NCBI GenBank assembly: GCA_016235245.1
Contig: JACRLO010000021.1
Location: 62,001 to 126,000 of the forward strand
Direction: 5' to 3'
Origin: Nitrospirota bacterium
GTDB lineage: Bacteria; Nitrospirota; Thermodesulfovibrionia; Thermodesulfovibrionales; UBA6898
Length of the DNA: 64,000 bases
In this document: piece by piece, positions 1,508 through 1,720 of the stretch
How the letters are laid out: every line of letters starts with the position of its first letter
How positions within the stretch are numbered: the first letter of the stretch is position 1
Notes under the pieces: model-generated
Database searches by the model: none
Told to the model about the DNA's origin: nothing
The model's input: only the letters and a program-made list of their open reading frames with translations
Program-made: the position numbers and the translations under genes

Positions 1508-1535
1508 TTGACGTTTGCCCGACCATTTGTATAAA
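1508..1535 (+). promoter_or_regulatory. sigma-70 type promoter of the htpX riboswitch transcript
   Basis: TTGACG at 1508-1513 and TATAAA at 1530-1535 are separated by 16 bases. A start about seven bases after the -10 box would begin the transcript just before P1 of the riboswitch at 1545. Confidence 0.7.
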
Positions 1536-1540
1536 ATTAA

Positions 1541-1650
1541 GACTGATAGAGGGGAGTAGCTCCCTGATGGGTTGATTGAGTCGTCAACACGTTCGCTGCG
1601 GCGGGCCGGTTCAATCGGTTATGCAGAATAACAGGCAAGACCTTTATCTC
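1541..1650 (+). ncRNA. yybP-ykoY (Mn2+-sensing) riboswitch aptamer
   Basis: The conserved landmarks of the yybP-ykoY family occur in order: GGGGAGTAGC at 1551-1560, GTCGTCAACA near 1580-1589, and GGCAAGACCTTT at 1634-1645. P1 forms between GATAGAGG (1545-1552) and CCTTTATC (1641-1648), with one G-U pair. Known members bind Mn2+ between two docked loops and control Mn exporters, TerC-type and related membrane proteins. Here the downstream gene is htpX. The 3' strand of P1 is also the 5' strand of an intrinsic terminator, so ligand binding should promote read-through. Family assignment is by recognised motif; a covariance-model search was not run. Confidence 0.88.
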
Positions 1651-1697
1651 GGCTCGTGAGTCAGTTGAATTCACCGGGGCGGGATAAGGGTTTTTTT
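1640..1697 (+). terminator. riboswitch-controlled intrinsic terminator upstream of htpX
   Basis: ACCTTTATCTC (1640-1650) pairs with GGGATAAGGGT (1681-1691), with two G-U pairs, and is followed by a run of seven T (1691-1697). The 5' arm overlaps the 3' strand of riboswitch P1 (1641-1648), so P1 and terminator cannot form together. This predicts an ON switch: aptamer folded, terminator disrupted. Confidence 0.82.
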
Positions 1698-1720
1698 CAT
1701 GGTGCAATAAGGAGGCAACT

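Follow-up and report, generated by a model that had tools for sequence, protein, structure and literature searches.

A yybP-ykoY-type (Mn2+) riboswitch upstream of the membrane protease gene htpX in Nitrospirota and its possible role in manganese tolerance

Riboswitches of the yybP-ykoY class are known to control genes encoding exporters, TerC or UPF0016 proteins, and the reason for the toxicity of excess Mn2+ is still debated. The protease HtpX is a zinc enzyme of the membrane and works alongside FtsH. In structures of the switches of L. lactis and X. oryzae the Mn2+ ion is contacted through N7 of an invariant adenosine (A41 and A48, respectively; PMC6754395), and in the studied relatives Mn2+ stabilises helix P1.1 and the terminator is blocked (PMC6754395, PMC11087558). 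The TerC proteins MeeF and MeeY of B. subtilis, which take part in Mn handling, co-purify with HtpX and FtsH, and FtsH becomes essential in cells without MeeF/MeeY (PMC10246235).

In the open-access literature htpX is named nowhere as a target of the yybP-ykoY class, the discovery paper of 2004 and the two founding papers of 2015 lying outside that search. The RNA class and its mechanism are already known, and htpX as a target is new within the open-access literature searched. The pairing likely went unreported because the Rfam model misses most switches of the subgroup described here.

Structure of the htpX leader

The locus is located in a stretch of 64 kb (the window, to which all coordinates refer unless a locus is named) of the 3.25 Mb genome of a Nitrospirota bacterium (G000). 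Reading of the sequence in 5' to 3' direction revealed a promoter, the aptamer, a terminator, a ribosome-binding site and htpX:

1508-1535, + strand: sigma-70-like promoter, TTGACG (1508-1513) and TATAAA (1530-1535) separated by 16 bases (sequence)
1543-1648, + strand: aptamer of the yybP-ykoY (Mn2+) riboswitch class (RF00080, htpX-free model R2, covariation in relatives)
1545-1552, + strand: 5' strand of P1, the switch helix, pairing with 1641-1648
1551-1559, + strand: L1 motif GGGGAGTAG, the first two bases of which also close P1; identical in 116 of 123 relatives
1574-1616, + strand: P3 arm with L3 (GTCAACA at 1583-1589)
1618-1632, + strand: P4 hairpin (folding and covariation)
1637-1697, + strand: intrinsic terminator with stem 1637-1694 and T run 1691-1697 (folding)
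1641-1648, + strand: 3' strand of P1, the switching element, shared with the 5' arm of the terminator
1710-1715, + strand: ribosome-binding site AGGAGG (sequence)
1721-2563, + strand: htpX, encoding an M48 zinc metalloprotease with HELAH motif (NF002826, PF01435)

The initial annotation had placed these elements correctly to within a few bases. It had also named the downstream gene correctly, the encoded protein reaching 427.8 bits against the curated HtpX model NF002826 (cut-off 369) and matching PF01435. The HExxH motif is kept in all 47 switch-linked HtpX proteins, and a TTGAC-type -35 element with a -10-like box precedes 105 of 123 related switches. On the 5' side of the switch (2-1465) genes for a TusA-like protein, a ThiF/MoeB-like protein and a Mec-type JAMM peptidase were recognised by reading, a cluster which suggests a putative sulfur-carrier pathway.

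RF00080 matches positions 1539-1710 of the plus strand with 25.8 bits (E 2.5e-5 in a scan of 401 bases against all Rfam families), and in a search of the whole genome this locus was the only match (E 4.8e-5). At the gathering score a scan of the window returned only tRNA and no RF00080 match, because 25.8 bits lie below the curated limit of 45 bits, which is an operational cut-off and not a biological feature. The covariance search proposed by the initial annotation is thus significant by its E-value but falls short of the curated score. Among the control genomes five, including L. lactis, have an RF00080 match and only two of these five pass 45 bits. For the yybP-ykoY subgroup seen here the 45-bit cut-off is too strict.

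The assignment to the yybP-ykoY class, which the initial annotation had based on sequence landmarks, holds: the class motifs, an equivalent of the Mn-ligand adenosine and the helices P1, P3 and P4 are all present. The L1 motif of the class, GGGGAGUAG, occurs at 1551-1559, and A1586 within the L3 sequence GTCAACA was assigned by the UCA motif (PMC6754395) as the equivalent of the invariant adenosine. Folding gives the helix order P1, P3, P3.2 and P4. A P2 helix is possible as a CCC/GGG hairpin of three base pairs at 1562-1571, and many relatives have a short P2 or none. In minimum-energy folds GGGGAG of L1 can pair with the adjoining CTCCC on its 3' side (1551-1565), forming a possible competing hairpin with which the possible P2 competes in turn. 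The sequence CTCCCTGA is present in the window and in the loci L002, L004 and L006 and is absent from the remaining training sequences.

P1, P3 and P4 are supported by covariation in two sets of 8 and 88 sequences. Among eight relatives both sides were changed in 14 of 27 pairs. In 88 distinct sequences 91.8% of the cells are paired and 350 cells show double changes, as compared with 104 after shuffling and no more than 51 in the slid controls, although the pairing figures of this larger set lean towards the model because the alignment was fitted to it.

The terminator stem has a folding energy of -30.5 kcal/mol (z = -6.2), and none of 200 shuffled sequences was as stable. Its 5' arm contains the P1 3' strand in full (eight of eight bases), and P1 and the terminator are therefore mutually exclusive, which bears out the arrangement described in the initial annotation. 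The same overlap followed by a T run was detected in 108 of 123 related switches, as opposed to a mean of 3.0 of 123 when the downstream DNA was shuffled. Swapping the P1 3' strands between switches left the terminator count at 103 of 123; this control is uninformative because the strand is nearly invariant, and only the shuffled control carries information. The equilibrium energies calculated by folding strongly favour the terminator state (-40.3 versus -18.2 kcal/mol), so that switching must occur co-transcriptionally as in the studied relatives. The reuse of the P1 3' strand by the terminator gives the leader a transcriptional ON architecture, and since Mn2+ stabilises P1.1 in the relatives, the predicted sense here is ON with Mn2+.

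Recurrence of the switch and the genes behind it

RF00080 had a match in only four of 396 Nitrospirota genomes and at E < 1 recovered two of 20 known loci. As it is nearly blind to the subgroup, own covariance models were built. The first model (R1) was trained on eight switches, five of them htpX-linked, and for this reason the 28 training switches of a second one (R2) included none located before htpX. In the window R2 has a single significant match (79.8 bits, E 3.4e-21), and in a mixed test set its three best scores are all htpX-linked. In 149 genomes of the order to which the source genome belongs R2 detected 65 switches, 20 of them followed by htpX (coordinates matched to the first-gene table of R1). 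An artefact of the training bias of R1 was considered as the origin of the pairing and rejected, as the pairing persists with R2. Furthermore, R2 recovers four of seven switches of a second phylum which had been found independently by RF00080, all four located before UPF0016 genes, and this ties the subgroup to the known class. The locus L041 had been misaligned in the first alignment and was omitted from training; its score of 42.6 bits is therefore independent of the training set.

A search for close relatives with HtpX, combined with a motif scan, located the switch before htpX in MnB_6, Geobacteraceae and deltaproteobacterial metagenome-assembled genomes (MAGs). In the R1 survey switches were detected in 70 of 396 Nitrospirota genomes and in 31 of 297 genomes of the second phylum, that of the Desulfuromonadaceae MAG GWC2_58_13 (G404). 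Among the genes directly following the 85 Nitrospirota switches HtpX is the most frequent (32 loci, 31 intact and one remnant), followed by P-type ATPases and Zn-ribbon proteins (13 each) and beta-carbonic anhydrase (9); UPF0182 proteins account for four loci and UPF0114, TerC and SPFH/HflK for two each. In the second phylum HtpX again leads with 14 of 36 surveyed switches, before ATPases (10), the rest being mainly TerC- or UPF0016-like proteins; together with two loci reached through htpX it accounts for 16 of 38, and the genomes G404 and G405 of this survey had also been reached via htpX. The succession of yybP-ykoY and htpX, for which the initial annotation had proposed a survey, is hence found in many genomes of two phyla.

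Counted as entire operons, the ATPase loci occur behind the switches about as often as htpX. The paired htpX often shares its operon with Mn-type ATPase or TerC genes, and at several loci htpX is directly followed by an ATPase, TerC or Zn-ribbon gene; in the MnB_6 MAG the gene after htpX encodes a PMR1-like ATPase with a switch of its own. PMR1-like P-type ATPases, TerC and UPF0016 proteins thus represent the co-regulated Mn-type targets, and HflK, a partner of FtsH, also occurs among the targets. Because of the Rfam cut-off a sizeable subgroup of the Mn switches of Nitrospirota and the second phylum escapes detection, and the Mn regulons of these bacteria are therefore under-counted.

Several further genes were noticed behind the switches. 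SPFH/Band 7 (HflK-like) genes follow directly at L164:2003-2857 (minus strand) and L159:1092-2066 (plus strand) and represent a second link to membrane proteolysis via FtsH. Beta-carbonic anhydrase is the first gene at nine Nitrospirota loci (L141, L132, L133, L146, L155, L156, L169, L124 and L126), which raises the question of whether the carbonate chemistry of Mn is involved. A Zn-ribbon protein of about 100 residues (PF13453) repeatedly lies between switch and P-type ATPase (L119, L103, L130, L109, L111, L115, L135 and others), and in Nitrospirota the Zn-ribbon gene in first position is nearly always followed by a P-type ATPase. UPF0182 membrane proteins were observed at L144 (PF03699), L095, L096 and L169.

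When the presence of the switch is mapped on a tree of 101 HtpX proteins, at least nine changes are required, at least four of them forced by well-supported branches. The assumption that every htpX of the group has a switch was rejected, as the upstream regions of htpX in 20 relatives lack one, including a relative with an HtpX 95% identical to that of the window; Mn control of htpX is therefore not obligatory. In G002 a clean excision of the switch could not be demonstrated, its htpX leader aligning poorly with that of the window.

The source genome itself has another switch outside the window:

G000:C4:79041-79135 (= L116:3042-3136): second Mn switch, missed by RF00080

It is followed by a short htpX remnant (FSDKIVLRMHRVQE, L116:3165-3278) and then by genes for a PccH-type cytochrome c and a PMR1-like P-type ATPase, and a beta-carbonic anhydrase gene lies directly upstream of it. 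Two genomes of the same genus have a second, intact copy of htpX preceded by a switch with a high score, the product of this htpX being 67% identical to the HtpX of the window. At L097 (G278) only about 71 codons and a stop are left of htpX, with the Mn switch on one side and a beta-carbonic anhydrase gene on the other; a deletion has apparently given the switch a new target.

Predicted control by Mn2+ and alternative explanations

Taken as a whole, region 1508-1720 is in our view highly probably a promoter followed by a transcriptional ON yybP-ykoY (Mn2+) riboswitch controlling htpX. The class, the helices, the overlap with the terminator and the recurrence with htpX are observed; Mn2+ as presumed ligand and the predicted ON sense are carried over from the studied relatives, and Mn2+ would very likely induce htpX. 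At low free Mn2+ the bases 1641-1648 would pair within the terminator hairpin (1637-1694), and the polymerase would stop at the T run on the 5' side of htpX. Excess Mn2+ would dock L1 against L3 through A1586 and stabilise P1, which would hold back 1641-1648, prevent the terminator from forming and allow htpX to be transcribed. HtpX would then most likely help to clear mis-metallated or jammed membrane proteins, and the Mn exporters of the regulon would lower Mn2+.

As to the purpose of this control, we tentatively propose that HtpX is an inducible component of Mn tolerance which removes membrane proteins that are jammed or carry the wrong metal, a reading whose chances appear slightly short of even. 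Damage by mis-metallation as the reason for employing HtpX, which the initial annotation had already considered, is plausible by analogy with the work on TerC, HtpX, FtsH and YqgP in B. subtilis; its other suggestion, that HtpX itself uses Mn, might also account for the control.

It is extremely improbable that the element is a constitutive attenuator or a chance resemblance without control by a ligand: its RF00080 score below the cut-off would agree with this, but the R2 match (E 3.4e-21), the covariation and the presence of the same element before Mn exporter genes speak against it. An RNA of this fold could also respond mainly to another signal, since the alx and mntP switches of E. coli are tied to alkalinity together with Mn (PMC9603457) and the streptococcal mgtA switch binds Ca2+ besides Mn2+ (PMC9495176). 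However, both the L1 motif and the adenosine contacting Mn are conserved and Mn-type exporters belong to the regulon, so that alkaline pH or another divalent cation as the main signal seems very unlikely.

The remaining alternatives accept the switch and differ in the task of HtpX. Recurrent targets are zinc proteins, namely the M48 protease HtpX, beta-carbonic anhydrase (9 first-gene loci) and the Zn-ribbon protein (13 + 3 first-gene loci), and the regulon might hence raise the dose of zinc proteins when excess Mn2+ displaces Zn2+. We consider this compensation distinctly unlikely, as exporters or membrane proteins make up many of the other targets and Mn2+, according to the Irving-Williams series, seldom outcompetes Zn2+ at tight sites. 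HtpX might instead destroy specific metal importers at high Mn2+ as a feedback on uptake. In B. subtilis YqgP and FtsH degrade the Mg/Mn transporter MgtE under Mn excess and thereby protect the cell (PMC7231995), and the two Nramp-type transporters in the source genome are possible substrates. Such selectivity is, however, not known for HtpX, which has no known substrate here, and a search of the source genome detected no MgtE; turnover of importers thus appears unlikely. TerC was not detected in the source genome either.

The predicted link from Mn2+ to HtpX, fixed in the leader RNA and repeatedly gained or kept, draws attention to membrane proteins as a place of damage or control, and suggests that bacteria with the pairing treat excess manganese partly as a problem of membrane-protein damage. 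The link also offers a simple assay for such damage or control. Whether Mn2+ riboswitches run membrane proteostasis (HtpX, sometimes HflK) beside export as a main, so far unreported arm of Mn tolerance in Nitrospirota and at least one further phylum appears about evenly balanced.

Comparison with known manganese switches and proteases

Like the described RF00080 switches (L. lactis yoaB, X. oryzae, B. subtilis, E. coli mntP and alx), the element in the window has the L1 motif, the L3 adenosine, the helices P1, P3 and P4 and a P1 3' strand common to the terminator, and its predicted ON logic is that of the L. lactis switch. It differs from the known switches in controlling a membrane protease, in scoring below the Rfam cut-off and in P2, which is limited to the three possible base pairs in the window and short or absent in many relatives. 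Streptococcal mgtA, encoding a Mn2+/Ca2+ P-type ATPase, is controlled by the same switch class, and PMR1-like ATPases lie behind sister switches, one of them in the source genome itself; the target of the streptococcal switch is, however, an exporter, whereas that of the window is a protease. A connection between Mn handling and membrane proteases has its counterpart in B. subtilis, in TerC (MeeF/MeeY)-FtsH-HtpX and in YqgP-FtsH-MgtE. In that species the two are linked physically, genetically or post-translationally, whereas in the window the link is built into the leader RNA of htpX.
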